The notes below the pieces were generated by a model. That model had not been told where the DNA came from and did not search any database. It saw only the letters and a program-made list of their open reading frames with translations. A stretch of DNA of 64,000 nt from Agromyces sp. S2-1-8 (GTDB lineage Bacteria; Actinomycetota; Actinomycetes; Actinomycetales; Microbacteriaceae): assembly GCF_021129215.1 (NCBI RefSeq), contig NZ_JAJOLP010000001.1, positions 682,001 through 746,000 of the forward strand, read 5' to 3'. Shown here one piece after another: positions 15,927 to 46,508 of this stretch. Position numbers and translations under genes: made by a program. Numbering within the stretch: the stretch's first letter is position 1; every line of letters begins with the position of its first letter.

Positions 15927-16057
15927 GCAGCACCGGTGAGCGCAGTCTTCTCTCGAACCGCGGTTTCGCGGGCGCTGGTCGGTCGGGACGGTTAAGCTTG
16001 ACTCTCGGGTCGCGACATCCACTTGCGGCCGATCGGCGGCGGTTGGGAGACGACGGC

Positions 16058-17824
16058 ATGACACCTGGTGGAGGACGAGGATGGTTCCATCGTCGACGTT
16101 CCCACCAGAATGAACCGCCTGTCGACCCGATCCCTGAGGGCAACGGTTCGAACAGCTTGACTTCCCCGGCTCAGCCGCCCGAACAGCAGACGTCCGGCAT
16201 CGAACGACTCGCAGCGTCGGTGACCGAGCCGCCAATCAGTGCAGGTCCGCACCCGGCCGTTCCGGCGGCTCCCGAATCGAGTGTCGATGCGTACCCAGCG
16301 GATCCGCGGCCGTCAGCGGCGATCGATTGGGATGCCGCGACCGCGGCCGCGCTGACCGACGAGGGCGAGCGGACGGAGGGCTCGAGCGGGCACCCTCTCG
16401 ATGCCGATCACGGGCCCGACCGCTTGCTCGAGGACCTCATCCGCGAAATCGTCGGAGACGCCGCGGTCGACACCGCAACGGCGCTGCACGCTGATCCCAA
16501 CGCCGAGCCTGTCGCGGTACGGGAAGAGACGCCCGACGAGCGTTCGGCCGCTGCAAGTGCACCATCGCCGGTCGCCGAGGCGGGCACCGACGACATCGAG
16601 CGTGCTCCCGCGAGCGACGGAACTGCACGAGTCGGTGAGCAGCCGCTCGCCGAGGCCGAACTCACGGCGGCACCGATGTCGCAGGTCGCAGCGGCGACCG
16701 CGCCCGAGGAGACCGCGCCCGAGGAGCCCGCGCCCGAGGAGACCGCGCCCGAGGAAGAGGTGCCGGCCGTGGCGGTCGTGCCTGACGTGGCGCTCGCTGA
16801 GACCACCGCTCCCGCCGAGCCGACCGCTCCCGCCGAGGATGCGGCGCCCACCGAGTCATCCGCTCAGGCGCAAGCAGCGCCTGCCGCAACGCAGCCCAAT
16901 GCCACCACCGATGTTTCACGTGAAACATCGATCGATCCCGGAGGAACTCCCCTGGCCTACGAACTTGCCGACGAGACCCGTCGGCGCATCGCGCTCGAGG
17001 AGGCTGTGCTCCCCCGTCCGGCGCAGACTCGCGTGCTCACCATCTCGAATCAGAAGGGCGGCGTCGGCAAGACGACCACCGCCGTGAATCTCGCGGCCGC
17101 GCTTGCGCGTTCGGGCGCCCGAGTTCTCGTCATCGACCTCGACCCGCAGGGCAACGCGTCGACGGCCCTCGGCGTCGACCACCGCTCGGAGAAGAAGAGC
17201 GTCTACGAGGTGCTGGTCTCCGACCTTCCCCTCGCCGAGGTCATCCAGCCGTCGACCGAGCACGACGACCTCGACTGCGTGCCGGCGACCATCCACCTGG
17301 CCGGCGCCGAGATCGAGCTCGTCTCGCTCGTCGCCCGCGAACAGCGACTCCGCCGTGCGCTCGACGCCCACCTCGCCTCGATGGACGAGCCGTACCATTA
17401 CGTCTTCATCGACTGCCCGCCGTCGCTCGGACTCCTGACGATCAACGCGTTCGTGGCAGCTCGTGAGGTGCTCATCCCGATCCAGTGCGAGTACTACGCA
17501 CTCGAGGGGCTCTCGCAGCTGCTCAGCAACATCGAGCTCATCGAGAAGCACCTCAATCCCGAGCTGCGACTCTCGACGATCCTGCTCACGATGTACGACT
17601 CCCGCACCAACCTGGCACAGCAGGTGGCGCAGGAGGTTCGCGACCACTTCCCCACCCAGACGCTCGAGACGATCATTCCCCGATCGGTTCGTGTGTCGGA
17701 GGCACCGAGCTACGGCCAGAGCGTGATCAGCTACGACTTCGCGTCGAGCGGGTCGCTCTCGTACCGTGAGGCGGCAGCCGAGATCGCCCGACGTGGCGCT
17801 GCGAAGACCGAGGAGTCGAACTGA
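16058..17824 (+). CDS. parA: Chromosome-partitioning ATPase ParA with long N-terminal extension
   Basis: Walker-type ATPase that segregates the origin region together with ParB bound to parS. The catalytic core starts near residue 324 (TRVLTISNQKGGVGKTTT, deviant Walker A), followed by VLVIDLDPQGNASTALG and YHYVFIDCPPSLGLLTINAF. From the ATG at 16058 (GGGAG upstream) the protein has 588 residues, against about 260-300 for most ParA. The first 325 or so are Ala/Pro/Glu-rich and probably disordered, with a fourfold 15-bp repeat (APEET type). Codon bias in this part is coding-like. A shorter start is possible (ATG 16676). The stop overlaps the parB ATG by one base. A perfect parS lies inside the gene. 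Confidence 0.9.
   Translation: MTPGGGRGWFHRRRSHQNEPPVDPIPEGNGSNSLTSPAQPPEQQTSGIERLAASVTEPPISAGPHPAVPAAPESSVDAYPADPRPSAAIDWDAATAAALTDEGERTEGSSGHPLDADHGPDRLLEDLIREIVGDAAVDTATALHADPNAEPVAVREETPDERSAAASAPSPVAEAGTDDIERAPASDGTARVGEQPLAEAELTAAPMSQVAAATAPEETAPEEPAPEETAPEEEVPAVAVVPDVALAETTAPAEPTAPAEDAAPTESSAQAQAAPAATQPNATTDVSRETSIDPGGTPLAYELADETRRRIALEEAVLPRPAQTRVLTISNQKGGVGKTTTAVNLAAALARSGARVLVIDLDPQGNASTALGVDHRSEKKSVYEVLVSDLPLAEVIQPSTEHDDLDCVPATIHLAGAEIELVSLVAREQRLRRALDAHLASMDEPYHYVFIDCPPSLGLLTINAFVAAREVLIPIQCEYYALEGLSQLLSNIELIEKHLNPELRLSTILLTMYDSRTNLAQQVAQEVRDHFPTQTLETIIPRSVRVSEAPSYGQSVISYDFASSGSLSYREAAAEIARRGAAKTEESN
16700..16759 (+). repeat. Four 15-bp tandem repeats within parA
   Basis: Unit GCGCCCGAGGAGACC with minor changes, encoding APEET-APEEP-APEET-APEEE in the disordered ParA extension. 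Confidence 0.9.
16912..16927. promoter_or_regulatory. parS: parS site 8 (inside parA)
   Basis: TGTTTCACGTGAAACA, the full 16-bp consensus palindrome, embedded in the parA coding frame where it encodes part of DVSRETS. Confidence 0.93.
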
Positions 17825-32184: not shown

Positions 32185-33558
32185 TTGTCGATCGCGCACA
32201 TCGGGCTCGCCGAACCGGTCGACGACGAGGGAGCCCGACGGGGCGAACGCGTTCCGCCGCATGACCTGCTCGCCGAACAGAGCGCGCTCGGCGGCATGAT
32301 GCTCTCGAAAGACGCGGTCGCCGACGTCATCGAGACGATCCGCGGCGTCGACTTCTACGTGCCCAAGCACGAGGTCATCTTCAACGCCCTGCTGACGCTC
32401 TATTCGCACGGCGAGCCGACCGACGTCATCGCCGTGACCGACGAGCTCACGAAGACGGGCGACCTGCAGCGCGCCGGCGGCGTCGAGTACCTGCACACGC
32501 TCACGAGCCTCGTGCCGACCGCGGCGAACGCCGGCTTCTACGCCTCGATCGTCGCCGAACGCGCGCTGCTGCGCCGCCTCGTCGAGGCGGGCACGCGCAT
32601 CGTGCAGATGGGCTACCAGGGCGAGGGCGAGGTCGTCGACCTCGTCAACAACGCGCAGGCCGAGATCTACTCGGTCACCGGCTCGGTCGAGACCGAAGAC
32701 TACGTGCCCCTCTCCGACGCGATCGGCGTCGCGATCGACGAGATCGAGGCCGCGAAGCACACCGACGGCAAGATGGTCGGCGTGCCGACCGGCTTCGCCG
32801 ATCTCGACGACCTGACCAACGGCTTCCACCCCGGGCAGATGATCATCGTCGCCGCCCGACCCGCGATGGGAAAGTCGACGCTCGCGCTCGACTTCGCTCG
32901 GGCTGCGGCGATCACGAACGACCTGCCTGCCGTGTTCTTCTCCCTCGAGATGGGCAAGAGCGAGATCGCGATGCGCCTGCTGTCGGCCGAGGCATCCGTG
33001 CCGCTGCAGAACATGCGCAAGGGCACCGTCGACTCGCGCGACTGGACCACCATCGCCTCGACCCGCGGTCGCATCAACGATGCCCCGCTCTACATCGACG
33101 ACTCGCCGAACATGACGCTCGTCGAGATCCGCGCGAAGTGCCGCAGGCTCAAGCAGCGCGTCGGACTCAAGATGGTGGTCATCGACTACCTGCAGCTCAT
33201 GACGAGCGGCAAGCGCGTCGAGAGCCGCCAGCAAGAGGTGTCGGAGTTCTCGCGTGCGCTGAAGCTGCTCGCGAAGGAGCTGCAGGTGCCAGTCATCGCG
33301 CTGTCGCAGCTGAACCGTGGCCCCGAGCAGCGCGCCGACAAGATGCCCGCGATCAGCGACCTGCGCGAGTCGGGTTCGATCGAGCAGGACGCCGACATGG
33401 TCATCCTGCTGCACCGCGAGGCCGCCTACGAGCGAGACAGCCCCCGTGCCGGCGAGGCCGACCTGATCGTGGCGAAGCACCGAAACGGTCCGACGCGCAC
33501 GATCACGGTCGCCTTCCACGGGCACTTCTCGCGGTTCGCCGACATGGTGCAGGTGTAG
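32185..33558 (+). CDS. dnaB: Replicative DNA helicase DnaB
   Basis: Hexameric helicase that unwinds DNA at the fork. TTG start at 32185 (LSIAHIGLAEPVDDEG), strongly supported by CGGAGGT 7 nt upstream. N-terminal domain: PPHDLLAEQSALGGMMLSKD. RecA-like core: Walker A ARPAMGKST, H1a/Walker B VVIDYLQLM, and the C-terminal QLNRGPEQRADKMPAISDLR with RESGSIEQDADMV. 457 residues, without intein. The stop lies 17 bp before the left end of a 12-kb insertion, so any native downstream sequence has been displaced to 45.6 kb. Confidence 0.97.
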   Translation: MSIAHIGLAEPVDDEGARRGERVPPHDLLAEQSALGGMMLSKDAVADVIETIRGVDFYVPKHEVIFNALLTLYSHGEPTDVIAVTDELTKTGDLQRAGGVEYLHTLTSLVPTAANAGFYASIVAERALLRRLVEAGTRIVQMGYQGEGEVVDLVNNAQAEIYSVTGSVETEDYVPLSDAIGVAIDEIEAAKHTDGKMVGVPTGFADLDDLTNGFHPGQMIIVAARPAMGKSTLALDFARAAAITNDLPAVFFSLEMGKSEIAMRLLSAEASVPLQNMRKGTVDSRDWTTIASTRGRINDAPLYIDDSPNMTLVEIRAKCRRLKQRVGLKMVVIDYLQLMTSGKRVESRQQEVSEFSRALKLLAKELQVPVIALSQLNRGPEQRADKMPAISDLRESGSIEQDADMVILLHREAAYERDSPRAGEADLIVAKHRNGPTRTITVAFHGHFSRFADMVQV

Positions 33559-33560
33559 CC

Positions 33561-33575
33561 GGGCCGTTTCGCCGG
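33561..33575 (+). repeat. Left 15-bp direct repeat flanking the 12-kb insertion
   Basis: GGGCCGTTTCGCCGG, identical to 45605-45619, immediately before the element's first base. Confidence 0.9.
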
Positions 33576-33782
33576 TGTAGGTTCCGCAGGAAGATGTCAT
33601 TTTCCGCGAGTACTTGTCACCTACCTGTCATTAGTGACAACTACCGCGGATTCCGGCCCGTCCTAGGGTTCCACACGAAGATGGCATTTCTGCCACCTTC
33701 CGTGGGTCCCATAGATGAGTCGACCGTGCCTTTGCAGTAGACGCATCTGTGCGGGCGTTTTCACCAGTCAGGGTGAACGGGC
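33576..33782 (+). repeat. Element end A (left end of module I)
   Basis: Starts TGTAGGTTCCGC. Subterminal units include GAAGATGTCATTTTCC, ACTTGTCA, CTGTCATTAGTGACA and GAAGATGGCATTTCTGCC. The segment 33735-33758 (GCAGTAGACGCATCTG then TGCGGGCG) recurs with two changes at 40741-40764. Together with the flank up to 33914 it forms a 356-bp gene-free stretch. Confidence 0.8.
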
Positions 33783-33914
33783 CCTCATTCTCCAGGGGCT
33801 TGAACGGCGGTGTGGCGGGCTGGCTGCGGGGTGATCGCGTTGAGTGTGCCCGAGCGCACCCTCGCCGGCGCGTGGCGCGTGCCCCTGCCTATCACGCGAT
33901 CCTGTCCTCGGCGG

Positions 33915-34376
33915 CTACTCCTGTATGGCTGCGGGCGCGGCTCGTTTGCGAGCTGAGGTGGCGAGGATCCAGCCGAGGAGGGCGCCGACGATGGCGTTGA
34001 CGATGGTCCACATGATGGTGTCGGCGATCGCGGAGACAAGGTCCATGGTTTTGAAGATCGCGTACTGGGTGAACAGGAAGTACACCTCAGTGAGGAATGC
34101 GACGACGGCGGCTGCGGTCGCACCGCGTAGCGGTGTGTAGAACTTGCCCCAGGTGATGACGGTCGCCAGCAATACGCCGTGAGCGAGGTTGGCGATGATG
34201 ATCGCGACGATGTTGATGCTGTCTCTGGAGATCAGCTCCGTGGTTTCGGGGGATAGCTCGCTGAAACCTTCGAGGAAGTCTTGGAAGAAGGTTCCGTAGA
34301 TGAGCAGGGTAAGCCCGAACACTGCGACTGCGCCGACCACGGATGCGAGGAGGAACGTAGCGGTCTTGTGTTTCAT
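33915..34376 (-). CDS. Small four-helix membrane protein, unknown
   Basis: 153 residues with about four hydrophobic segments (near 9-30, 53-76, 83-105 and 120-142): TATFLLASVVGAVAVFGLTL, NIVAIIIANLAHGVLLATVI, FLTEVYFLFTQYAIF and MWTIVNAIVGALLGWIL. The C-terminus is basic. No family is recognised with confidence. It lies on the same strand as, and downstream of, the ABC permease operon in module I, separated by 271 bp containing a terminator, so it may be expressed separately. Base composition is less GC-rich than the core genes. Confidence 0.7.
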   Translation of the reverse strand: MKHKTATFLLASVVGAVAVFGLTLLIYGTFFQDFLEGFSELSPETTELISRDSINIVAIIIANLAHGVLLATVITWGKFYTPLRGATAAAVVAFLTEVYFLFTQYAIFKTMDLVSAIADTIMWTIVNAIVGALLGWILATSARKRAAPAAIQE

Positions 34377-34612
34377 ATCTCCGGTCCGATCTGTTCGGTG
34401 TGGGTGAGGGCGGTCTGCGGTGTCGAGGGAAATCGGAGTCAGATCTGTTGCTGCGGGTGCGGATCGCTCGGGTTTCGGGTGGTGCCATGGAGGAGCTGGA
34501 CTGCAACGAAAAGTCGTGATTATCCTTCGATTCTCAGACCGACGCCGCGTGCTCTTCTAGTGAGTTGATGCTGACATCACCTCCTCGGGACGTGATCGAT
34601 TGCGGAGCTGGT

Positions 34613-34640
34613 GGGGTGCTCGGGGTTTGCCGAGCACCCC
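34613..34640 (-). terminator. Terminator after ABC permease
   Basis: GGGGTGCTCGG-GGTTTG-CCGAGCACCCC, 11-bp perfect stem, 7 bp past the permease stop on the minus strand. Confidence 0.88.
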
Positions 34641-34647
34641 ATAGCGG

Positions 34648-35949
34648 CTATTCGTAGCGAAGTGAGTCGACGGGGTCGGCTTTCGCGGCCCGTGCGGCGG
34701 GCAGAGTGCCAGCGAGGAACGCGATCGCCATGACCAGCAGGATGATTCCCACGATCGATGCCGGGTCGAACGCGATCAGCGTGAGCCCTGGCAGGTCGGC
34801 GAGTAGTGTCTGCGAGAGTACGGAGCTGAGCCCGGTGCCGGCTGCGATCGCGATGACCGCGCCGATCGCGGAGCCGAGGAAGCCGATGAAGGTAGCTTCG
34901 AGGCTGAACAGGCCGAAGACCTTGCCGCTGCCCATGCCCATGGCTTTCATGAGTCCGATCTCCCGGGTCCGTTCCTGAACGGACATGTAGAGGGTGTTCA
35001 CGATCCCGAACGCCGCGGCTAGCAGTGCGATGATCGCGAACGCGTTGAGGACGAGCACGATCCCGTCGATGACGGTGGTGATTGTGCCGAGCTGGTCATC
35101 GATGGTCGTGCCGGTGAAGCCGGCGTCGGCGAGTCGCTCCTTGAGCGCTTCGATGTCGTCCGCGCTTGCGTCTGGGTCGAACCAGACGGTCGCGGATGAG
35201 TACCGGTCCGCTTCGTCTGCGGGGATGCCGGTGGACTGTGCGTCGAACAGGGTGTCGGTGAGCGCGGTGTTGATGAGGATGCTGGAGCCCGTCGGGGACG
35301 CGAGGGCCTCTTCCGTGACACCGACGACGGTCGCGTCGATGGTGTGCTGGGTGCGCACCGCGTCGGTGATCGCGATCGTCACGGTCTGTCCGATCGCGTC
35401 AGCGTCACTGTCGAATCCGAGCGGTTCCACGTACGCCTGCGGCAACGCGACTTCGTACTCCGTCGCGTCGTCATCGGGTGCGGAGCCATCCGCGAGGACG
35501 GTGGTCTGCCCGGCAACGAGGGCGCCGACGCTCGCGACGTACTGAGTGCCGTCATCGAATTGGATGAAGTCAGGGTTGATGTTCCGCTGCGCGTCGACGG
35601 AAAGGACCCCGTCGATGCCCTCGATGGTTTCGATGTCGTCGGGGGTGAGGGCGGTGACGGTCATCCCAGGGATGCCGGCGGAGACGGCGTCGGGGTCGTA
35701 TTCGGCCGGTTCGCCGCCTCCGGCGAGGGGGTCGCCAGCGTTTTCGGTGGTCTTCGTGACAGTCATCGCGTCGGAGGCTCCGACTCCGGAGATGGTGTCG
35801 TCGATGTAGTTGTTGATACCTGTGCCAAGGCCGCTGGTGATAGCCAGGGTGAATGCGCCGATGAAGATCGACAAAATCGTCAGGATGGTGCGGGTCTTGG
35901 ATCGGAACGTGTTGGAGACCGCGGAGCCGATCAGGTCGAGGGCCTTCAT
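34648..35949 (-). CDS. MacB/FtsX-type ABC transporter permease
   Basis: 433-residue permease. The N-terminal helix in RTILTILSIFIGAFTLAITS is followed by a large extracytoplasmic domain (about residues 50-290) and three C-terminal helices (VLVLNAFAIIALLAAAFGIV; SLEATFIGFLGSAIGAVIAI; ASIVGIILLVMAIAFLAG). The RTREIGLMKAMGMG coupling segment is typical of FtsX/MacB permeases. Such mechanotransmission transporters export peptides or drugs or regulate cell-wall enzymes; the substrate is unknown. Its ATG overlaps the ATPase stop by 4 bp. The two genes form one operon opposite to the histidine kinase. Confidence 0.9.
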   Translation of the reverse strand: MKALDLIGSAVSNTFRSKTRTILTILSIFIGAFTLAITSGLGTGINNYIDDTISGVGASDAMTVTKTTENAGDPLAGGGEPAEYDPDAVSAGIPGMTVTALTPDDIETIEGIDGVLSVDAQRNINPDFIQFDDGTQYVASVGALVAGQTTVLADGSAPDDDATEYEVALPQAYVEPLGFDSDADAIGQTVTIAITDAVRTQHTIDATVVGVTEEALASPTGSSILINTALTDTLFDAQSTGIPADEADRYSSATVWFDPDASADDIEALKERLADAGFTGTTIDDQLGTITTVIDGIVLVLNAFAIIALLAAAFGIVNTLYMSVQERTREIGLMKAMGMGSGKVFGLFSLEATFIGFLGSAIGAVIAIAAGTGLSSVLSQTLLADLPGLTLIAFDPASIVGIILLVMAIAFLAGTLPAARAAKADPVDSLRYE

Positions 35950-36644
35950 GCCGCTACCTCCGTAGTGTCGTCGATGAGGAGGCCGTCGCGGATGCGCAGC
36001 TGCCGGTCGCAGCGGGCGGCGAGGTCTTCGTCGTGGGTGACGACGATGAGGGTGATGCCGTGTTCCCGGTTCAGCTCGAAGAGGATGTCTTCGACGACGG
36101 CTCCGGTCTTGGAGTCGAGGTTGCCGGTGGGTTCGTCGGCGAAGATGATCCGGGGGTTGTTCACCAGGGCGCGGGCGATCACGACGCGTTGCTTCTGCCC
36201 GCCCGATAGGTTGATGGCCTTGTTCTTGGCCTTGTCGGCGAGTTCCAATTGCTCGAGCGCTGCCATGCCGCGGCGCTTGCGTTCTGCCGCACCGACGCCG
36301 GCGATCTTCAGCGGCAGTGTGACGTTGTCGAGCACTGATGCGTTGGGGATGAGGAAGAACTGCTGGAACACGAACCCGAAGGTCTTGTTGCGGGTGCGGT
36401 TGAGCCGGCGGCCCTTCAAAGTACGGGTGTCGACGTTCTCGAGCTTGATGCGACCGCTGGACGGGGCGTCGAGGAGGGCCATGATGTGCATCAAGGTGGA
36501 TTTCCCGGAGCCGGATTTGCCGAGGATCGCGATGGATTCACCTTCGGAGATGGCGAAGCTCACCCCCTTGAGGGCGTCGAAACGGGTTTGGCCGCGCCCG
36601 TACGACTTGTGCACGTCGTCGGCGAGGATGATCGGGATACTCAT
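35946..36644 (-). CDS. ABC transporter ATP-binding protein (MacB/LolD type)
   Basis: 232 residues with Walker A GKSGSGKSTLMHIM, Q-loop FVFQQFFLIP, signature LSGGQKQR, Walker B IIFADEPTGNLD and switch histidine VVTHD. It belongs to the family that partners FtsX-like permeases, encoded by the overlapping next gene. The ATG at 36644 (MSIPIILADDVHKSYGRG) is divergent from the histidine kinase. The 176-bp intergenic region holds a palindrome shared with the MFS gene, suggesting common control. Confidence 0.93.
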   Translation of the reverse strand: MSIPIILADDVHKSYGRGQTRFDALKGVSFAISEGESIAILGKSGSGKSTLMHIMALLDAPSSGRIKLENVDTRTLKGRRLNRTRNKTFGFVFQQFFLIPNASVLDNVTLPLKIAGVGAAERKRRGMAALEQLELADKAKNKAINLSGGQKQRVVIARALVNNPRIIFADEPTGNLDSKTGAVVEDILFELNREHGITLIVVTHDEDLAARCDRQLRIRDGLLIDDTTEVAA

Positions 36645-36745
36645 GAATCGCTCCTGTGATGCCCCGCGGGGCCGTCGGATGGTCTGGGTATCTCCAGCCT
36701 TCCGGGCACACCCGATACGCGCGTCGCTCTGACGCGGACACTCTC

Positions 36746-36763
36746 ATACCGCGGATGCGGTAT
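36746..36763. promoter_or_regulatory. Palindromic operator, copy 1 (ABC/histidine kinase)
   Basis: ATACCGC-GGAT-GCGGTAT, perfect 7-bp arms, between the divergent ABC ATPase and kinase genes. It matches copy 2 at 38691. Probable response-regulator site. Confidence 0.65.
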
Positions 36764-36820
36764 TTCCGGATCCCCTGAGAAGGTGACGTCTGTGGGGTCT
36801 GGTCGCGCCACACTGGGAGG

Positions 36821-38016
36821 GTGACCAGAGATCCGGATCGCCCCGTGACGGTGGCGGAGGTGCCGGCTTCACCGCATCCGGCGATGCCGGCGTGGGCGGG
36901 GGATCTGATCGCCGCAGCGCTGATCGTCGCCGCCGCGTTCGCACCCTTCCCGGGTGATGAGTTCCAACCCGACAACTGGGCGGCGACGGTCTTGGTGATC
37001 CTGCCGGCGGTTGTGTTGCCATTCCGGCGTAGATGGCCACTCGCCGTGCTCATCGTGTGCCTCGTCTTGTACGGGACGGCGGCGTGGATCGGGCTGCTGT
37101 CGCCGGGCATTGGGCTGAGCGTGGCGATCGCGATGTTTGGAGTAGCGAACCGGTCCACCCGACGAGCCACGGTCCTCATCGGGGGGCTCACCGTGCTGGT
37201 GGTGTTCGTGTTGAGCATTCCGGCCGCCCCCGGGAGTGTCTTTGACCCGCGGGTGTTCCAGTTCGTGTTCGCGGTCGCGTTCGCCTCCGCCGCTGGAGAC
37301 GGTGCCCGGTCACGTCGGGCATATATTGCGGCGATCACGGAGCGCGCCGAACGCGCCGAACAGACCCGGGATGCAGAGGCCCGCCGCCGCGTCACCGAGG
37401 AGCGGCTGCGCCTGGCCCGTGATCTGCATGACGCGGTCGCCCACCAGATCGCAGTCATCAGCCTGAACGCGGGAGTCGCTTCTTCCGCGCTGCGAGATGA
37501 CCCCGCCCGGGCGGCAACGGCGCTCGGCACGATCCGCGGAGCCGCCCGGACCGTTCTCGGCGAGATCGGTAGTCTGCTCACTATGCTCCGTGCCGACGAC
37601 CCGGCCGATGGCGTCCCGGCTCCTCAATACGGGCTCGAGCAGCTTCCCGACCTCCTAGACCAGTTCCGCAGCACCGGCCTGGAGGTGAACACTCGCATCG
37701 ACGGAGCGACCACGCACGTCACTGGTGTTGTGGGACTTGTGGCGTATCGGGTGATTCAGGAAGCACTCACGAACGCCCACAAGCACGGCACCGAGCACCG
37801 TGCCCACCTGCTGTTGGAGGTTGGACCGGACAACCTGCGGATCGTGGTTACCAACCCCGCCGGCGACCAGCCCAGCGCCCCCTTGACCGGTACTGGAGTA
37901 GGGCTGATCGGGTTGCGGGAACGAGTCGCGTCGGTGCGCGGAACCGTTGAGGCCGGTCCCATACTCGGCGGCTGGAAGATCAGCGCTACTCTGCCGCTGA
38001 AGAAGGAGGACGCGAC

Positions 38017-38020
<4 letters not shown>
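36821..38020 (+). CDS. Two-component sensor histidine kinase (NarL-partner type)
   Basis: 399 residues. Four to five N-terminal membrane helices (residues about 25-160) are followed by a HisKA_3 dimerisation helix with the phosphoacceptor His203 (ARDLHDAVAHQIAVISLNAG) and an HATPase domain (VIQEALTNAHKHGTEHR, GTGVGLIGLRERV). The membrane part has no large extracellular domain, so it probably senses a membrane-associated signal, as envelope-stress or drug sensors do. The GTG at 36821 is assumed; GGGAGG lies directly before it, so a start further inside is possible. Its stop overlaps the regulator start by 4 bp. Confidence 0.9.
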
Positions 38021-40448
<2,428 letters not shown>

Positions 40449-40553
40449 CCCGATCGATCGCGGTCTGTGGGATCCGGCCAAGCAATTTGCCCTAGCCGGC
40501 GCCACTCGCGCCCTTTGAGAGATCCCTTGCGGGGCGTGGCGGCAGATGTCGGT

Positions 40554-40652
40554 GTGTAGGAATTTGCCATCTTCCGTGGAATCCCGTCCGCTCAGACCCG
40601 GACAAATACCGCGGATTCTGCGCCACAGCGACATCTCCGCGCGGAACCTACA
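40554..40652 (-). repeat. Element end B1 (right end of module I)
   Basis: 99 bp, inverted orientation, reading outward-in TGTAGGTTCCGCGCGGAGAT and ending GTGTAGG-side at 40554. It is homologous over its whole length to end C (45505-45604): both carry GGATTCCAC-RGAAGATGGCA near the inner edge. It falls in the 443-bp gene-free junction 40449-40891. Confidence 0.8.
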
Positions 40653-40790
40653 TGTAGGTTCCCGTGGTAAATGTCCAATTCCCACTGGACTTGTCATCGA
40701 GGTGTCCAAAAGGACATGTGTTTGGGATTCGATCTGTGTTGCAGTAGACGTATCTGGGCGGGCGAATACCATCGGGTCAGGTAGACGGAC
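40653..40790 (+). repeat. Element end B2 (left end of module II)
   Basis: Starts TGTAGGTTCCCGTGGTAAAT. It shares ACTTGTCA, GTGTCC/GGACA and the 24-bp GCAGTAGACG-type block (40741-40764) with end A, but lacks about 70 bp of A's internal repeats. Confidence 0.78.
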
Positions 40791-40891
40791 AATTCGCTCG
40801 CTGGGCACGGCGAACTCATTCGACGATCGGGTCGCCCGCTCCCGGATGACGGTCGTATCTTTACGAAGCTGGCGCCGGAGATGGGGGATGC

Positions 40892-41728
40892 GTGATCCGT
40901 TCTGGCCCAGAGCCCGCAGGGTTGCTCCTTGACAACCACCCACGTCAATGCGGTGTGTGCGGGGTCTTCCGAAGGCTGAGTAAGACCCACGTGCCCCCAC
41001 AGGCGGCTGGCAACACCCGTGATGTTGAGCGAGCGAATGTGATGGCATCACCGGGGGTCGGACTGACGCCAGGGACTTGGAACAAGGGTGGGATGTGGGT
41101 GCGTGGGCTTTGCGTCGACTGCAACAACTTCGCCGGCTCACGCTATGACACGGCATACGCCGACTTCGCTCGTCGAGTGGAGACTCGGCTCAGGCTAACT
41201 TCTCGAAGTCGCATCGCGACACCAAACGCTCAGGCGGTTACTGTCGCTCCCGGCCGAGTCTCGCGATCGGTGCTTTCCGGAATGTTAGGGATCAGTCCCC
41301 ACACGCGGGTATTACATCCGACACTCGCGGAGCAGGTGCACGAAGGCGGGCCGGTTAGGCTCCCCGGTGAAATCACTCTGCGAGTTGCGACCTACATGGG
41401 GACCGCAGCCCAGCTCACCGGGCCGATGCTGACTGGTCTAACGGACGGAAGTGGCCGGGCGATCCATACTCTCGCCGCAGTGACATTCCGGCCATTCTCA
41501 TGGGCGCTGGCGACGTCCGACTCTGATGCCGTGCTTGCGGGTCGCGGCTGGGTCGATGCGACGGAGTGGCTCCTGTACGAAGACGCCCGGGACTCTCACG
41601 ATCTGCGATGGCTCGCACCAAATGGCGTTCCTGAGGTTCAGACAATTCTCCATGCGCCGTCCAACAGCGACATTCAGATGTACTCGAAGGAGATCGCCCC
41701 CATCATGGTTGGTCGCCTCCCGGGTTAG
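40892..41728 (+). CDS. Hypothetical protein with Cys4/HNH-like N-terminus
   Basis: 278 residues, start GTG 40892 with GGGGGATGC upstream. The N-terminus has two CxxC pairs and a histidine in the order QCGVCGVFRRLSKTHVPPQ ... LCVDCNNFAGSRYDTAY. This matches the layout of HNH-type zinc fingers or nucleases (CxxC, T-H-V-P-P, CxxCN), although a full catalytic HNH triad is not obvious. The remainder (about 90-278) has no family I recognise. Codon use is less GC-biased than in core genes. It lies just inside the left end of module II, where an element-encoded function might be expected. A role in defence or DNA processing is only a possibility. Confidence 0.7.
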   Translation: MIRSGPEPAGLLLDNHPRQCGVCGVFRRLSKTHVPPQAAGNTRDVERANVMASPGVGLTPGTWNKGGMWVRGLCVDCNNFAGSRYDTAYADFARRVETRLRLTSRSRIATPNAQAVTVAPGRVSRSVLSGMLGISPHTRVLHPTLAEQVHEGGPVRLPGEITLRVATYMGTAAQLTGPMLTGLTDGSGRAIHTLAAVTFRPFSWALATSDSDAVLAGRGWVDATEWLLYEDARDSHDLRWLAPNGVPEVQTILHAPSNSDIQMYSKEIAPIMVGRLPG

Positions 41729-41786
41729 CCCATCGGTTCTGTGGGCGCGGTGACGGACCGGCTTTGCGGGCGGATGGGCCAACGGA

Positions 41787-41852
41787 CGTGACGCCCTTTC
41801 GCCGCGTGACGCCCTTTTCATCAGGTGCCGGATCGGGCAAAAGGGCATCACG
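41787..41852. terminator. Repeat hairpin between convergent genes of module II
   Basis: CGTGACGCCCTTTT (41805-41818) pairs with AAAAGGGCATCACG (41839-41852), 14-bp arms with one G-T type mismatch and a 20-nt loop. A second direct copy CGTGACGCCCTTT lies at 41787-41799. It probably terminates both convergent transcripts. Confidence 0.65.
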
Positions 41853-41945
41853 TGAGAGTGGTCCATGAGTGGATCCGCCATCGGGACGATACTGAACCTC
41901 ACCGGTCGCTCGCTCGTGCGGGTTCTGATTGGCTGAGCATCCGCG

Positions 41946-43181
41946 CTATCGGAGCCGGTCGCGGCGACGGGCGAGGTGAGCGGTCTCTGCGGTATTGCCC
42001 GCCAGGTCGAGGGCCGTGTCGTACGCTGCGCGGGCGTCTTGGTTACGGCCGAGCCTCCGCAGCAGATCGGCACGCGTTGCGTGGAAGGCGTGATAGCCGT
42101 TCAACGCCTTTTCGAGCCGATCGACCGTCGTAAGGGCAACTGCCGGGCCGTCGATCTCGGCGACCGCGATGGCCCGGTTCAGGGCGATGATCGGTGACGG
42201 GTCTGCGTTGGCGAGCTGGTCGTAGAGCGCGAGGATCTGTGACCAGTCCGTCTCGCGGAAGTCGCGGGCGGAGGTGTGCACGGCCCCGATGGCGGCGAGG
42301 ATCTGGTATCGGCCGGGAGCCTCACCGGCGGCGGCGGCAATGAGGCGCTCACGCACCAGCTGATGGCCCTCGGCGATGAGTTCCGGCTCCCAGGCCGCAC
42401 GGTCCTGTTCGTCGAGCGGGACCAGCTCGCCGTGTTCGGAGATCCGGGCGGTGCGGCGGGCCTCCGTGAGGAGCATGAACGCCAGCAGCCCGGCGACCTC
42501 GCCGCTCTCGGGTATGAGCTGACGGATCAGGCGTGTGAGGCGGATCGCCTCGGCGGTGAGGTCGGCACGTACCGGGCTGCTTTCTGGACTGGTCGCCAGA
42601 TAGCCCTCATTGAAGATCAGGAAGAGCACCGCGAGGACCCCGGCGACGCGGTCCGGGAGATCTGCCTTAGAAGGCATTCGATACGGGATGCGAGCCGCTT
42701 TGATCTTGGCCTTCGCGCGGGTTATCCGCTGTCCCATCGTGTTCTCGGGGACCAGGAACGCGTGGGCGATCTCGGGCACGGTCAGACCGCCGATCATGCG
42801 CAAGGTCAGCGCCACTCGATTCTCCATCGCCAACGCCGGATGACAGCAGGTGAAGAGTAACCGGAGCCGGTCGTCGTCGATGGCACAGATCGACTCGGTC
42901 GGTGCGTGGCCGAACACCATCCGGGCCTCCTCGTGTTTGCTGTCGCGTTGGCTTTCGCGCCGCAGTCGATCGATGCCCTTGCGGGTCGCCGTGGTGGTGA
43001 GCCAGGCGCCCGGGTTGGGTGGTAAGCCGTCGACAGGCCACCGGGTGACGGCGGTCGCGAACGCCTCGGCCGCAGCCTCCTCCGCCAGGTCGAGGTTGCC
43101 GAAGCGCCTGGTCAGGCCGGCGACAAGCCGGGCCCACTCGTCACGGTACGCCTGGCTGATCGCGCCCTCGACGTCGCTCAC
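41946..43181 (-). CDS. ECF42-type RNA polymerase sigma factor (DUF6596/TPR C-terminus)
   Basis: 411-residue extracytoplasmic-function sigma factor with a long C-terminal extension. Sigma region 2 is visible in NLDLAEEAAAEAFATAVTRW, then GAWLTTTATRKGIDRLRR. Region 4 lies around LRMIGGLTVPEIAHAFLVPE with TMGQRITRAKAKI. The C-terminal helical/TPR-like part includes LAAIGAVHTSARDFRETDWS and LALYDQLANADPSPIIALNR. This class lacks an anti-sigma factor and is characteristically paired with YCII/DGPF proteins, as here: its GTG (43181) overlaps the YCII stop. The regulated genes are unknown; neighbours in module II are candidates. Confidence 0.92.
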   Translation of the reverse strand: MSDVEGAISQAYRDEWARLVAGLTRRFGNLDLAEEAAAEAFATAVTRWPVDGLPPNPGAWLTTTATRKGIDRLRRESQRDSKHEEARMVFGHAPTESICAIDDDRLRLLFTCCHPALAMENRVALTLRMIGGLTVPEIAHAFLVPENTMGQRITRAKAKIKAARIPYRMPSKADLPDRVAGVLAVLFLIFNEGYLATSPESSPVRADLTAEAIRLTRLIRQLIPESGEVAGLLAFMLLTEARRTARISEHGELVPLDEQDRAAWEPELIAEGHQLVRERLIAAAAGEAPGRYQILAAIGAVHTSARDFRETDWSQILALYDQLANADPSPIIALNRAIAVAEIDGPAVALTTVDRLEKALNGYHAFHATRADLLRRLGRNQDARAAYDTALDLAGNTAETAHLARRRDRLR

Positions 43182-43501
43182 TGGAACGGCCGCACCTCGA
43201 TCTTCCGGTCGCAGACCTTCGACGCCTCGGCCGCCAGGGTGAGCGCAACATCCAGATCTGGCGCCTCCCATACCCAGACACCGGCGAGGTACTCCTTCGA
43301 CTCCAGGAACGGTCCATCGCTGATCATCGGGTGCTCGCCCCGATTGTCGATGACCGTGGCTGCGTCCGTGTCCGCGAGCCCGCCCGCGAACACCCAGTAG
43401 CCATCGGCGATCAGGCGCTCGTTGAACTGGCTGATCGCGGGTCGCCTGTCCAAGCTGCCGGGATTGCGCTTGTCATCGATCACGGAAATCAGGTACTGCA
43501 T
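43178..43501 (-). CDS. YCII/DGPF-domain protein partner of ECF42
   Basis: 107 residues beginning MQYLISVIDDKRNPG, with the DGPF motif in HPMISDGPFLESKEYLAGVW and LTLAAEASKVCDRKIEVRPF. Small ferredoxin-like-fold proteins of this class are co-encoded with ECF42 sigma factors and may participate in signalling; the mechanism is not established. Its stop overlaps the sigma-factor GTG by 4 bp. Confidence 0.9.
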   Translation of the reverse strand: MQYLISVIDDKRNPGSLDRRPAISQFNERLIADGYWVFAGGLADTDAATVIDNRGEHPMISDGPFLESKEYLAGVWVWEAPDLDVALTLAAEASKVCDRKIEVRPFQ

Positions 43502-43552
43502 CGGAAGTCCTCTCTCTGGTTCATGTCATTGGTGCGACGCCCGCTCGGGTCT

Positions 43553-43912
43553 TCAGTGCGGGCCCGTGGGATGCGCGAGATCGTACGCGCGAGCGAGCTT
43601 CGCGGGCACGACCATGCGCCAGGCATCGACGACGAGTTCGCGGGCCTCGGAAGGCTTCAGCACAGCGAGATCGGCGTGGACCCAGTTGAAGCGCAGTTCT
43701 GACTCCGAGGGCATCTGGAACTTGCGTGGGTTTCCCGCGACGAGCGCTGCCCGCTCCTCCTTCGGGAAGGCGAACCCCATCACGGCCTCGTCGAGTGAGA
43801 ACGCGACGTAGACCATCTGACCGACCCGGAACTTCAATCGCCCGCGCACGTATGCATGATAGGAGCGCTCCAGCTCCGCGCCCAGCGCTCGAACGTCGTC
43901 GAGGACCGCCAT
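43553..43912 (-). CDS. MmcQ/YjbR family DNA-binding protein
   Basis: 119 residues from ATG 43912 (MAVLDDVRALGAELERSYHA). The YjbR/CyaY-like fold is indicated by VYVAFSLDEAVMGFAFPKEE, ELRFNWVHADLAVL and the C-terminal WRMVVPAKLARAYDLAHP. The biochemical role of this family is poorly known despite the DNA-binding label. It sits between ohr and the YCII gene on the same strand. A longer frame to 44092 overlaps ohr and is rejected. Confidence 0.82.
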   Translation of the reverse strand: MAVLDDVRALGAELERSYHAYVRGRLKFRVGQMVYVAFSLDEAVMGFAFPKEERAALVAGNPRKFQMPSESELRFNWVHADLAVLKPSEARELVVDAWRMVVPAKLARAYDLAHPTGPH

Positions 43913-43934
43913 GACCAGATTCCGTTTCCCTAGA

Positions 43935-44345
43935 TTATTCGGCGAGAAGGTGGACAGGAATGTTGCCCCGCGTCGCATTCGAATACGGGCAGACGTCGTG
44001 TGTGGTCCGGATGAGCTCTTGAGCGACTTCTGGGGGCAGGCCCTCGGGCAGTGCTGTCCGCAACGTGACTTCGAGCGTGAAGCCACCTGCACCGTTGGGA
44101 AGCAGGCTGACCTCGGCTGTCACCGATAGCCCTGAAACGTCGATTCTCCGCTGGCCTGCCACGAGCTGCAACGAGGTTGCAAAACAGGCGGCATATCCTG
44201 CCGCGAACAGCTGCTCGGGGTTGGTGCCATCGCCCGTACCGCCCAGCTCCTGCTGCAACGCCAAGTCCACATCCAACTTGCCGTCAGAACTGAAGGCGCG
44301 GCCGTTGCGACCGGTCGAAGTAGCAACAGCAGTGTAAAGACTCAC
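43935..44345 (-). CDS. ohr: Organic hydroperoxide resistance protein (Ohr/OsmC)
   Basis: 136 residues from GTG 44345 (AGGAG 6 nt upstream): VSLYTAVATSTGRNGRAFS. Peroxidatic cysteine in GYAACFATSLQLVA and resolving cysteine in THDVCPYSNATRGNIPVHL, the Ohr pattern. It reduces organic peroxides using lipoylated partners in studied species. No OhrR-type regulator is adjacent; the ECF42 sigma factor in the same module is a possible controller. Confidence 0.93.
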   Translation of the reverse strand: MSLYTAVATSTGRNGRAFSSDGKLDVDLALQQELGGTGDGTNPEQLFAAGYAACFATSLQLVAGQRRIDVSGLSVTAEVSLLPNGAGGFTLEVTLRTALPEGLPPEVAQELIRTTHDVCPYSNATRGNIPVHLLAE

Positions 44346-44361
44346 GACTGACTCCTGTCGA

Positions 44362-44973
44362 TCAGAACGTTGCATAGTCGGGGCGGCCAGCGGGGCGATA
44401 GGTCTGAATCATCACGCCCTTCGAATCCGTACGTGAGTCGACCAGATTCATCGCGATATCCCGACCTGAATCCGCGAAAAGTCGGGCACCCTGCCCCAGC
44501 ACCACGGGCACGATGATGAGTTCCATTTCGTCGACGAGGTCCTTCTCCAGGAGCCACTGGATGAGGCGACTACTGCCGTGCACTTGCAGCTCTCCACGCC
44601 CGCTGGCTTTCAGTTCCGTGACGGCGGCGAAGAGGTCATCACCGAGGACTGCCGTGTTCGCCCACGCCGGTTCCCTCAGCGTTCTGGATGCCACGTACTT
44701 CGGCCTCGTGTTCAGGGCCACGCCGATCGGTTGCAGTTTCAGGTCCTCGATGGTTCCCCAGAATTCGAGCAGGATGTCGTAGGTTCGGCGGCCGAGAAGA
44801 AACGCATCGGCGCGCTCGAAGGTCGCGGCGATATGATCGCGGGTCGAGTCGTCACCCGCGCCCCGCGCCCAACCACCGCGCTCGAACCCGCACTCGCGGT
44901 CTTCCACGGTCGGGCCGCCGTTTCCCTGCGTCACTCCGTCGAGCGTGAGCTGCGTGATCGTCGTAAGTTTCAT
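44362..44973 (-). CDS. Dihydrofolate reductase family protein (RibD C-terminal-like)
   Basis: 203 residues beginning MKLTTITQLTLDGVTQGNGG, with FERADAFLLGRRTYDILLEFWG, LKASGRGELQVHGSSRLIQW and IIVPVVLGQGARLFAD, the usual landmarks of the RibD_C/DHFR-like family. These are NADPH-dependent reductases of mostly unknown substrate. It ends 16 bp before ohr on the same strand and is probably co-transcribed. Confidence 0.88.
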   Translation of the reverse strand: MKLTTITQLTLDGVTQGNGGPTVEDRECGFERGGWARGAGDDSTRDHIAATFERADAFLLGRRTYDILLEFWGTIEDLKLQPIGVALNTRPKYVASRTLREPAWANTAVLGDDLFAAVTELKASGRGELQVHGSSRLIQWLLEKDLVDEMELIIVPVVLGQGARLFADSGRDIAMNLVDSRTDSKGVMIQTYRPAGRPDYATF

Positions 44974-45140
44974 TGACCTGGTTCTCCCTGGCTTCGGCGC
45001 CCGCCCATCGGACGCCTCTCACTAGATCAACGAACGGCCCCGCACGAATCCGACATCACCAGCACGCCGCCTTTAAGCGCCACCACAGACCGCTAGACGA
45101 GATGCCGCAGAAGGATCCCTCCACGCCCGCGAATGAGCGA

Positions 45141-45521
45141 TTACCTCGAGCGAGGGCGCTTCAGGCGCTCGTACTTCGAACGGAAATAGCCGAGGCTCGT
45201 TCCGCCGCTGACAACCTCGCGAGCCAGTCGCAACTCGATGCGGGATTCGAGCGCGATTCCCACGTCGCTGATGCCGGCTGTTGCTGCGGCGTGGATCGCG
45301 GCGTCGAGCTCGTCGAGCACGGGCGCCGCCTCGTCCAGGGCTGCTTCGACTTCGCTGCGGGATGCGTCGAACGCTTCGAGGTCGCGCGCCACCGCAGTGA
45401 GTTTCGCCACGACTTCCTCCCAAGCAGCAATGAGCCGGAGTCGGTTCGGATCATCCGCAGGCAATTGGCGCAGCGAGGCGGCACCATTCGGTGAGTCGCG
45501 GGGCGTGTAGGAAAATGCCAT
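45141..45521 (-). CDS. Small helical protein with its N-terminus in the element end
   Basis: 126 residues from ATG 45521: MAFSYTPRDSPNGAASLRQL followed by a helical, Ala/Glu-rich region (WEEVVAKLTAVARDLEAFDA; LDEAAPVLDELDAAIHAAAT) and a basic tail LKRPRSR. No family is recognised. The first five or so codons lie inside the conserved right terminal repeat, so the natural 5' end was probably lost when the element end was joined here. No convincing ribosome-binding site is visible. It may be non-functional. Confidence 0.5.
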   Translation of the reverse strand: MAFSYTPRDSPNGAASLRQLPADDPNRLRLIAAWEEVVAKLTAVARDLEAFDASRSEVEAALDEAAPVLDELDAAIHAAATAGISDVGIALESRIELRLAREVVSGGTSLGYFRSKYERLKRPRSR

Positions 45522-45604
45522 CTTCTGTGGAATCCGAGCGCTCAAACCGATGACATTTGCCGTGGAATCTCGGACCCTGATGCCATTTCGGCGCGGAACC
45601 TACA
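45505..45604 (-). repeat. Element end C (right end of module II)
   Basis: 100 bp homologous to end B1. Read inward it begins TGTAGGTTCCGCGCCGAAAT and contains TTCCACGGCAAATGTCAT and TTCCACAGAAGATGGCAT units. It is the outer boundary of the 12-kb insertion. Confidence 0.82.
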
Positions 45605-45619
45605 GGGCCGTTTCGCCGG
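45605..45619 (+). repeat. Right 15-bp direct repeat flanking the 12-kb insertion
   Basis: GGGCCGTTTCGCCGG, identical to 33561-33575, starting on the base after the element's last base. Confidence 0.9.
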
Positions 45620-45883
45620 TTCTCGCGCAACCTGTCGTCGCGGCGTTGCCGGCCGCATCGACAATGGCAGCCCGATCCGACTCGCACGCCCGCAGATCGG
45701 CGTGCCGGCCGACCTTGTCGAACATCGCAGTCGTCGGCAGACTGGCACCACGACGCGAGGAGTCTGCCATGGCCGATCAGGACGTCCCGAGCGGAGGCAC
45801 GCCAGCCATCTTCCGCGAGCGATGGCGAGTCTCGGATCGGCGGGCCGCCGCACGGGCCGAGACGTGTGGCGGGTGAGACGGGA
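45620..45883. other. Gene-free flank after the insertion
   Basis: Presumably the sequence that originally followed dnaB. Short frames on both strands show no recognisable protein. It may hold the promoter of the acetyltransferase gene. Confidence 0.5.
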
Positions 45884-46471
45884 GTGACGACGTCGCACGT
45901 GATCAAGCCGCTCACTCCCGAGACCTTCCCGGCGTGGTTGGCGCTCGCGCAGAAGCACAACGGGGTCTGGGGCGGGTGCTACTGCTCGTATTTCCACGGC
46001 GACACGGAGCGCACCGTCAAGGACGATTACGACCGGCCGACGTTCAAGCAGCGACTCGTGGCGGAGGGCGTCGCGCACGCCGCGCTCGTCTTCGACGGCG
46101 ACGACGCGATCGCCTGGTGCGAGTACGGCAGTCCGGTCGAACTGCCGAACATCTACCACCGCAAGCAGTACGACGCCGGCGAGACCACGCCGGCGCCGTG
46201 GCGCATCACCTGCTTCTTCGTCGACCGCGACCATCGACGGTCGGGAGTGGCACGAGAAGCGCTCGACGGCGCGCTCGAGCTGATCGCCCAGGCCGGCGGG
46301 GGCGAGGTGGTCTCGTTCCCCAACGAGCTCGCCCCCGGCAAGCGGACGTCGTCGTCGTTCCTCCACAACGGCACGAGGGCCATGTTCGAGAAGGCGGGAT
46401 TCACGTTCGAGCGGCACATCGGCAAGAGCAAGACCGTCATGCGCAAGACGGTCGCACCGGCCCACGGCTGA
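45884..46471 (+). CDS. GNAT-family acetyltransferase
   Basis: 195 residues (GTG 45884, VTTSHVIKPLTPETFPAWLA; another GTG at 45866 is possible). Typical of a GNAT subgroup with the N-terminal HNGVWGGCYCSYFH motif. The acetyl-CoA region is ITCFFVDRDHRRSGVAREAL, followed by ALELIAQAGGGEVVSFPNE. The substrate is unknown. It stands alone on the plus strand after the insertion. Confidence 0.83.
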   Translation: MTTSHVIKPLTPETFPAWLALAQKHNGVWGGCYCSYFHGDTERTVKDDYDRPTFKQRLVAEGVAHAALVFDGDDAIAWCEYGSPVELPNIYHRKQYDAGETTPAPWRITCFFVDRDHRRSGVAREALDGALELIAQAGGGEVVSFPNELAPGKRTSSSFLHNGTRAMFEKAGFTFERHIGKSKTVMRKTVAPAHG

Positions 46472-46508
46472 CGCCGGGCTCGCCCGGTCGGTTCGCCGAG
46501 TGGCGGGC

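Follow-up and report, generated by a model that had tools for sequence, protein, structure and literature searches.

Examination of a 64,000-nucleotide stretch of DNA from Agromyces sp. S2-1-8 (contig NZ_JAJOLP010000001.1, positions 682,001 to 746,000 of the forward strand; hereafter the window) identified a 12,029-bp insert (33576-45604) that starts 17 nt past the stop codon of dnaB and consists of two cassettes placed end to end. A preliminary description of this DNA, made from the sequence alone, had drawn four related ends bounding two modules after dnaB, and both the sequence and weight matrices built from other genomes bear this layout out:

32185..33558, + strand: dnaB, replicative DNA helicase (TIGR00665, 528 bits; cut-off 385), with the putative attachment site at its 3' end
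33561..33575, + strand: left copy of the 15-bp flanking direct repeat GGGCCGTTTCGCCGG, read directly
33576..40652, no strand: cassette I (module I), 7,077 bp, no transposase found; ends by weight matrix
33576..33665, + strand: left-type end A of cassette I, with spaced repeats that are putative TnsB sites; weight matrix
40553..40652, - strand: right-type end B of cassette I; weight matrix
40653..45604, no strand: cassette II (module II), 4,952 bp, no transposase found; ends by weight matrix
40653..40742, + strand: left-type end C of cassette II, abutting end B; weight matrix
45505..45604, - strand: right-type end D of cassette II; weight matrix
45605..45619, + strand: right copy of GGGCCGTTTCGCCGG, perfect

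The motif TGTAGGTTCCGC lies at 33576 on the plus strand and its reverse complement terminates at 45604 and at 40652; the fourth copy of the end, TGTAGGTTCC, begins at 40653 on the plus strand, and the inner ends B and C touch with 0 bases between them. Weight matrices trained on 18 left-type and 13 right-type ends of other genomes (the window and the genome G446, described below, being excluded) ranked these four ends at the top of 127,908 window positions scored. The left-type matrix gave 54.1 at 33576 (+) and 37.5 at 40653 (+), and the right-type matrix 50.4 at 45604 (-) and 46.8 at 40652 (-), no other site in the window exceeding 6.7 on either matrix. Left-type and right-type ends differ from each other, each shows about 65-100 bp of conserved sequence that includes spaced repeats, and the likeness of end A to the left ends of other genomes extends to about 33796. 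Past the end repeats, a 26-bp stretch (33732-33757 and 40739-40764) is 92% identical between the two cassettes, and the 92-118 bp around it recur in Agromyces Root81, Agromyces ISL-38 and genome G280.

No transposase, integrase or resolvase was found in Pfam scans of the 18 open reading frames (ORFs) inside the insert, and tblastn with the TnsABCD proteins of G446 found no match in the window at 1e-4, as the preliminary description had anticipated in stating that no such gene lay inside. Rfam gave no match above its gathering score in window 33000-46500 and no tRNA was found across the window. The cassettes have ends with spaced repeats, left distinct from right, and no tnsABC of their own; because of this lack of tns genes, we file them only as non-autonomous, with the ends of a Tn7-like family. 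The copies of GGGCCGTTTCGCCGG, absent from the preliminary description, sit directly outside the outer ends A and D and flank the whole 12,029-bp unit. They are the only exact matches in the window (allowing at most 3 mismatches, there are 12 against 8.7 expected), and no target duplication surrounds either cassette singly.

Ends of the same family at dnaB and the complete element of G446

The pattern TGTAGGTTCC N8 ATGKC was present in 5 of 299 Microbacteriaceae genomes, the reversed pattern serving as control in none of them (0/299). A longer left-end pattern was found in 7 stretches of 6 genomes in a collection of 84,980 species, namely Agromyces ISL-38, Soil535 (twice), Root81 and A. italicus, a Plantibacter (G175) and a Microbacterium metagenome-assembled genome. 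Taken together, both searches yielded 10 distinct genomes, that of the window included, and the 9 others all belong to Microbacteriaceae. Neither viral contigs nor plasmids matched the ends, and a plasmid search with the whole 12 kb returned 7 records with gene-level matches only.

In nine of the ten genomes found by their ends alone, the left-type end lies 1-100 nt past the dnaB stop (dnaB was not examined in the tenth, G120), and it is this same end that faces dnaB every time. Among 60 Agromyces genomes searched with the 3' part of dnaB, 59 were usable (G352 was dropped, having no usable match) and in 11 of these 59 a left-type end is clearly present within about 100 nt; these 11 scored 43-61, the next best 16 and the other 47 below 0. 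Of the 15 dnaB-adjacent ends used to train the matrix applied here, 12 came from Agromyces itself and the one from Root81 was mis-registered; the count of 11 can also be read directly from the sequences and end positions. In G337 a short local alignment placed the dnaB stop too early, the true end falling within the scored stretch. Insertion is hence oriented and beside one conserved gene, both among the genomes found by their ends and across Agromyces.

The preliminary description had asked for the same ends around an element with a transposase, and such an element was found in G446, a genome of another genus. Its left-type end lies 10 nt past dnaB and is followed by a gene for a YobI-like NTPase and by tnsA, tnsB, tnsC and tnsD (tnsD/tniQ), the tnsA side being towards dnaB; beyond tnsD, right-type and left ends that are both degenerate stand 4 nt apart, in that order, and a long stretch of cargo then leads to the final right-type end. 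This unit (C1:175137-212621, 37,485 bp) has GGCCG on both sides as a 5-bp target duplication, and its outer ends scored 58.2 and 40.0 on matrices built without G446. TnsA reached 232 bits on NF033179 (cut-off 110) and matched PF08722, TnsC exceeded the cut-offs of PF05621 (TniB) and PF13401 (AAA_22), and TnsD, with 67 bits on PF06527 (TniQ; cut-off 27), has a long C-terminal extension, with helix-turn-helix (HTH) matches in its C-terminal part. The operon thus holds a TnsA endonuclease, a TnsB DDE transposase, a TnsC ATPase and a TniQ/TnsD protein, the gene set of a Tn7-like transposon, and Tn7, one of the precedents named in the preliminary description, gains support from the same end family bounding a complete tnsABCD at the same dnaB position. 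In A. italicus a left-type end lies 33 nt past a full dnaB, and inside it are TnsA, in frame, and a truncated TnsB that matches over only about 470 of 725 residues; no TnsC or TnsD match and no right-type end were found in the 13.5 kb examined. When the TnsB of A. italicus was searched against 398 genomes of the family, 25 had some relative, with G446 the closest by far (76% against 51% for the next).

Taking these comparisons together, we consider it likely that the insert comprises two non-autonomous Tn7-like elements in tandem, both homing to dnaB and probably moved in trans by the TnsABC and TnsD of an autonomous relative. Under this proposal the ends would carry an array of sites for a TnsB-type transposase and the cassettes would hold cargo only (the efflux, ABC transporter and two-component genes of cassette I; the ECF sigma, YCII, OsmC and RibD-like genes of cassette II). 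The TnsAB of an autonomous relative elsewhere would recognise the ends, and TnsD, the TniQ protein with a long C-terminal extension, would recognise the 3' end of dnaB. Insertion would then occur in one orientation, a few bases past the dnaB stop codon and with 5 bp duplicated, and repeated homing would build arrays. The two cassettes of the window may have moved as one unit.

The ends could instead belong to a transposase of IS21 or IS481 type. Ends of the form TG...CA with several subterminal repeats also occur in IS21, IS481 elements can produce long duplications, and the genome of the window does have one rve-domain transposase gene. That gene, however, resembles IS481 by eye, no TGTAGG-type end occurs in its 3.4-kb locus, and TnsA, TnsB, TnsC and TnsD are the only transposition genes found between ends of this family, with no istA or istB inside, so that we find this assignment scarcely credible.

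Target duplications, arrays and the search for a helper

Examination of 295 left/right end pairs from 29 loci, chosen for their ends or end-like sites, revealed direct repeats of at least 4 bases abutting both ends in 7 pairs, against 1.5 expected. Six pairs have repeats of at least 5 bases: the window (15) and, with 5 each, the 37.5-kb unit of G446, an 11.2-kb element of A. italicus (locus L070), a 655-bp member in G280, a 4.4-kb member in G227 and a 2.5-kb member in G120. The 5-bp duplications of these five relatives all differ, and the members in A. italicus L070, G280 (655 bp), G227 and G120 gave no match to G446 TnsABCD (tblastn, 1e-4).

The 15-bp repeat of the window allows a different view, in which the insert entered by site-specific recombination at a 15-bp core, as an island would under a tyrosine or serine recombinase, and the two copies are attL and attR. 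A perfect direct repeat at the outer ends and a position just past the 3' end of a conserved gene would both be expected in that case; nevertheless, the Pfam scans found no recombinase or integrase inside the insert, its ends match transposon ends that enclose tnsA and tnsB in G446 and A. italicus, and the 5-bp duplications of the five relatives are all different. Moreover, the 15-bp core does not stand directly past dnaB at other occupied sites, where the flanks differ between genomes. We regard such an entry as very improbable.

Behind the element in the array at L070 (A. italicus, G302/G325 contig C4) come its 5-bp duplication, 3 bases and an older left end, the order expected if elements home repeatedly to one site. 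This array is attached, 9 nt past the stop, to a foreign 3' dnaB fragment (about 15966-16439) of about 156 codons that lies away from the resident dnaB and has 95% DNA identity over 469 bp to another Agromyces.

A strain with an empty site downstream of dnaB, which the preliminary description had called for, is the Agromyces genome G328, where a stretch 91.6% identical to window 45880-46487 (a GNAT gene) starts 75 nt past the dnaB stop. In Agromyces Soil535 the same GNAT gene is about 16 kb from dnaB with an array of these elements between, and in the window it follows the 12-kb insert. Many other Agromyces carry a different gene beside dnaB, and the locus is therefore variable in general. The relatives are not all collinear for the cargo genes and the repeats bound insertions, in line with the insertion originally proposed.

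The genome of the window, in two contigs and 99.99% complete, has no match to G446 TnsB. A close TnsB relative exists in only one of 60 Agromyces (A. italicus, the truncated copy), the other 59, the window's genome included, being without one, and three other Agromyces have a distant TnsB (28-37%). The TnsB protein search was used because PF09299 is a weak test, the TnsB of G446 scoring below its cut-off. TniQ (PF06527) was found in G446, the positive control, and in none of 8 other genomes tested, again including the window's own. Searches with PF09299 and PF00665 pointed to a second Tn7-like TnsABC set in G280 (L066, 15918-19728), about 3.3 kb past a tRNA-Arg gene. We rejected it as the direct helper, as it lies on another contig, near tRNA-Arg, with different putative end repeats (by eye) and with no TGTAGG end close to the family.

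Ends beside dnaB are therefore fairly common (11 of 59 Agromyces) whereas no intact copy of the cognate machine was seen in 60, and members without tns genes have clean 5-bp duplications, a combination that favours movement in trans; the cassettes of the window probably moved in this way. The preliminary description had suggested passengers mobilised in trans, for which the 5-bp duplications of relatives and the pair of occupied and empty sites provide support, the mobilisation itself being what we infer from them.

The main rival to trans movement is later loss. The cassettes could be decayed autonomous Tn7-like elements whose own tnsABCD was deleted after insertion, and A. italicus, with TnsA in frame, a truncated TnsB and no TnsC or TnsD match, offers an example of such decay. 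Against it, four members lacking tns genes, with different cargo and sizes from 655 bp to 11.2 kb, retain both ends and perfect 5-bp duplications, and, leaving aside A. italicus and G446, the arrays contained no remnant of tns genes by tblastn at 1e-4. A clean loss of four genes in so many members is also less simple than passenger movement. Decay as the general explanation is thus unlikely, and it may hold for one cassette alone.

Several observations weigh against two Tn7-like passengers homing to dnaB. The distance to dnaB is not fixed, as it varies over 1-100 nt (6-17 nt for 11 of the 15 cases), in contrast to the constant spacing between Tn7 and glmS. Members also occur away from dnaB (for example L012, L013, L076 and L080), and several dnaB-adjacent elements show no target duplication (Root81; G280 save its 655-bp member). 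In the window the flanking repeat is 15 bp instead of 5 bp (it might represent three 5-bp duplications made one after another), and no spacer separates B from C, six other junctions having 2, 4, 4, 4, 5 and 8 nt. Lastly, a complete tnsABCD with these ends was seen only in one genome, G446, of another genus, and its TnsB scored below the Pfam cut-offs for rve and Mu-transpos_C; the naming of this protein hence rests on operon context and on matches to solved TnsB chains in the PDB (best E 9.6e-13). The 15-bp repeat, the zero-base junction, the variable distance and the array members without duplications point to a history of more than single insertions.

Relation to known transposons

Tn7 uses its TnsABCD pathway to insert at attTn7, downstream of glmS (PMC2918618). 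The family described here resembles it in having TnsA, TnsB, TnsC and a TniQ-type TnsD in one operon (G446), a 5-bp target duplication, TGT...ACA ends with several repeats and oriented insertion just past an essential gene. It differs in its site, which is dnaB and not glmS, in the C-terminal part of TnsD with its HTH matches, in most members being without tns genes and many lying in arrays, and in the variable distance to the gene. The tnsA side of Tn7 faces glmS, as that of G446 faces dnaB. Parks and Peters reportedly described several Tn7-like elements accumulating at one site, as Tn7-type genomic islands at attTn7; accumulation at one site is shared with our arrays, whereas most units accumulated here have no tns genes. 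Few attachment genes seem to have been described for Tn7-like elements (glmS, comM, tRNA genes and some others), and a TnsD that reads dnaB would, if confirmed, add an essential replication gene to them.

An Actinobacteria-dominated clade of Tn7-like transposons has been reported (Benler et al. 2021, PMC8649781). The G446 TnsA lies above the cut-off of the family NF033179 (TnsA_like_Actin), and plasmid relatives of its TnsB in Rhodococcus and Streptomyces (41-45% identity) have an NF033179 annotation under the match in 7 of 12 cases among the matches listed. A difference is that the passages of PMC8649781 consulted mention neither a dnaB site nor transposase-free members. As in the miniature inverted-repeat transposable elements (MITEs) and other non-autonomous transposons treated in PMC10969869, the ends of an autonomous family occur here without its transposase, and the 655-bp member of G280 is nearly MITE-sized. 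The members in the window are nonetheless 5-7 kb long with whole gene sets, and the helper would be a multi-protein machine of Tn7 type with a target selector, in contrast to the elements of that source as far as its text covers them.

No report of Tn7-like elements with dnaB, or of an Agromyces transposon at dnaB, was found in a literature search that left supplements and most subscription papers outside its scope, and dnaB occurs 0 times in the main texts, supplements being outside scope, of PMC8649781, PMC10293859 (Faure 2023) and PMC11406308. The Tn7 kind of element is already known, and the dnaB site with its many transposase-free cassettes was not found in the literature searched. A mostly transposase-free family would mean that searches seeded with tns genes overlook many cargo islands, which might be located by looking for TGTAGGTTCY N8 ATGKC within about 100 nt past dnaB. 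A helper and passenger pair would also be at hand to test whether Tn7-type cargo is mobilised in trans in actinobacteria.

A broader picture is possible, although we lean slightly against it as it stands. The 3' end of dnaB would be the chromosomal home of a Microbacteriaceae Tn7-like family in which transposase-free cassettes are far more numerous than complete elements. They would gather in arrays, exchange or flip the cargo held between standard ends, and travel as composites (of 37.5 kb in G446 and 12 kb in the window) when a helper TnsABCD passes. Such a family would be a Tn7 counterpart of integron cassette arrays, whose attachment gene sometimes travels too (as may be the case for the foreign 3' dnaB fragment with its 11-kb cassette in A. 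italicus).

Cargo genes and the neighbourhood of dnaB

The genes carried by cassette I (the first six) and cassette II are the following:

33915..34376, - strand: 153-aa protein that has no Pfam match and looks membrane-like by eye
34648..35949, - strand: MacB/FtsX-type ABC permease (PF02687, PF12704)
35946..36644, - strand: ABC transporter ATPase (PF00005)
36821..38020, + strand: sensor histidine kinase (PF07730)
38017..38682, + strand: LuxR-type response regulator (PF00072, PF00196)
38715..40448, + strand: DHA2-family MFS efflux transporter (PF07690; TIGR00711 above cut-off)
40892..41728, + strand: protein with only a weak HNH-like match, below cut-off
41946..43271, - strand: ECF sigma factor with DUF6596 (PF20239, PF08281, PF04542); the label ECF42 is that of the preliminary description
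43178..43501, - strand: YCII-domain protein (PF03795)
43553..44092, - strand: YjbR-like protein (PF04237, 25.2 bits, below the cut-off of 30.1), its true start probably further inside the ORF
43935..44375, - strand: OsmC-like protein (PF02566)
44362..44973, - strand: RibD C-terminal-domain protein (PF01872)

The export and two-component set that had been read in module I is recovered by Pfam as an ABC permease and ATPase, a kinase, a regulator and an MFS exporter. For module II, described earlier as an ECF42/YCII pair with peroxide and reductase genes, Pfam supports an ECF sigma factor with DUF6596 and YCII, OsmC-like and RibD-like proteins, the name ECF42 itself staying with the earlier reading. 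The cargo of cassette II is inverted relative to its ends in Root81 (87% identity over 1,974 bp), and its relatives are no more than about 4 kb from dnaB in G317 and G321, the distance in G280 being about 17-32 kb; cargo and ends therefore seem to recombine. Of five window proteins tried with PADLOC, one matched, weakly (the ABC permease). Other members carry a TIR-domain protein with PADLOC candidate-defence matches, an AAA-like/TPR protein and a YobI-like NTPase (L012 2957-4429, L014 14514-16952 and L200 3-2510), and defence may be a common cargo of the family.

Downstream of the insert two further features were located:

45620..45636, + strand: TTCTCGCGCAACCTGTC, equal to the stretch after TGTAGG in the left-type ends of G280, G336 and G339, the TGTAGG being missing here
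45866..46471, + strand: GNAT acetyltransferase gene (PF00583), which is the next gene after dnaB at the empty site of G328

TTCTCGCGCAACCTGTC at 45620-45636 is probably the remnant of an older element's left end, to judge from its likeness to those three ends, although the left matrix gave no match there (best score in 45605-45760, -8.7). The native alignment picks up again at about window 45705, and the DNA from 45620 to about 45705 is probably debris of the older element.

A second, unrelated family of repeats (TAGATTGTCCGA repeats) also starts just past dnaB in L122, L132 and L077 (G348, G312 and Root81, respectively), so that the 3' end of dnaB may be a hotspot shared by more than one family of elements. 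Finally, contig C9 of G354 (L141, L142) carries dnaB twice, the copies facing opposite ways at a distance of about 39 kb and with identical downstream DNA over at least 1.5 kb, which may be an assembly artefact.

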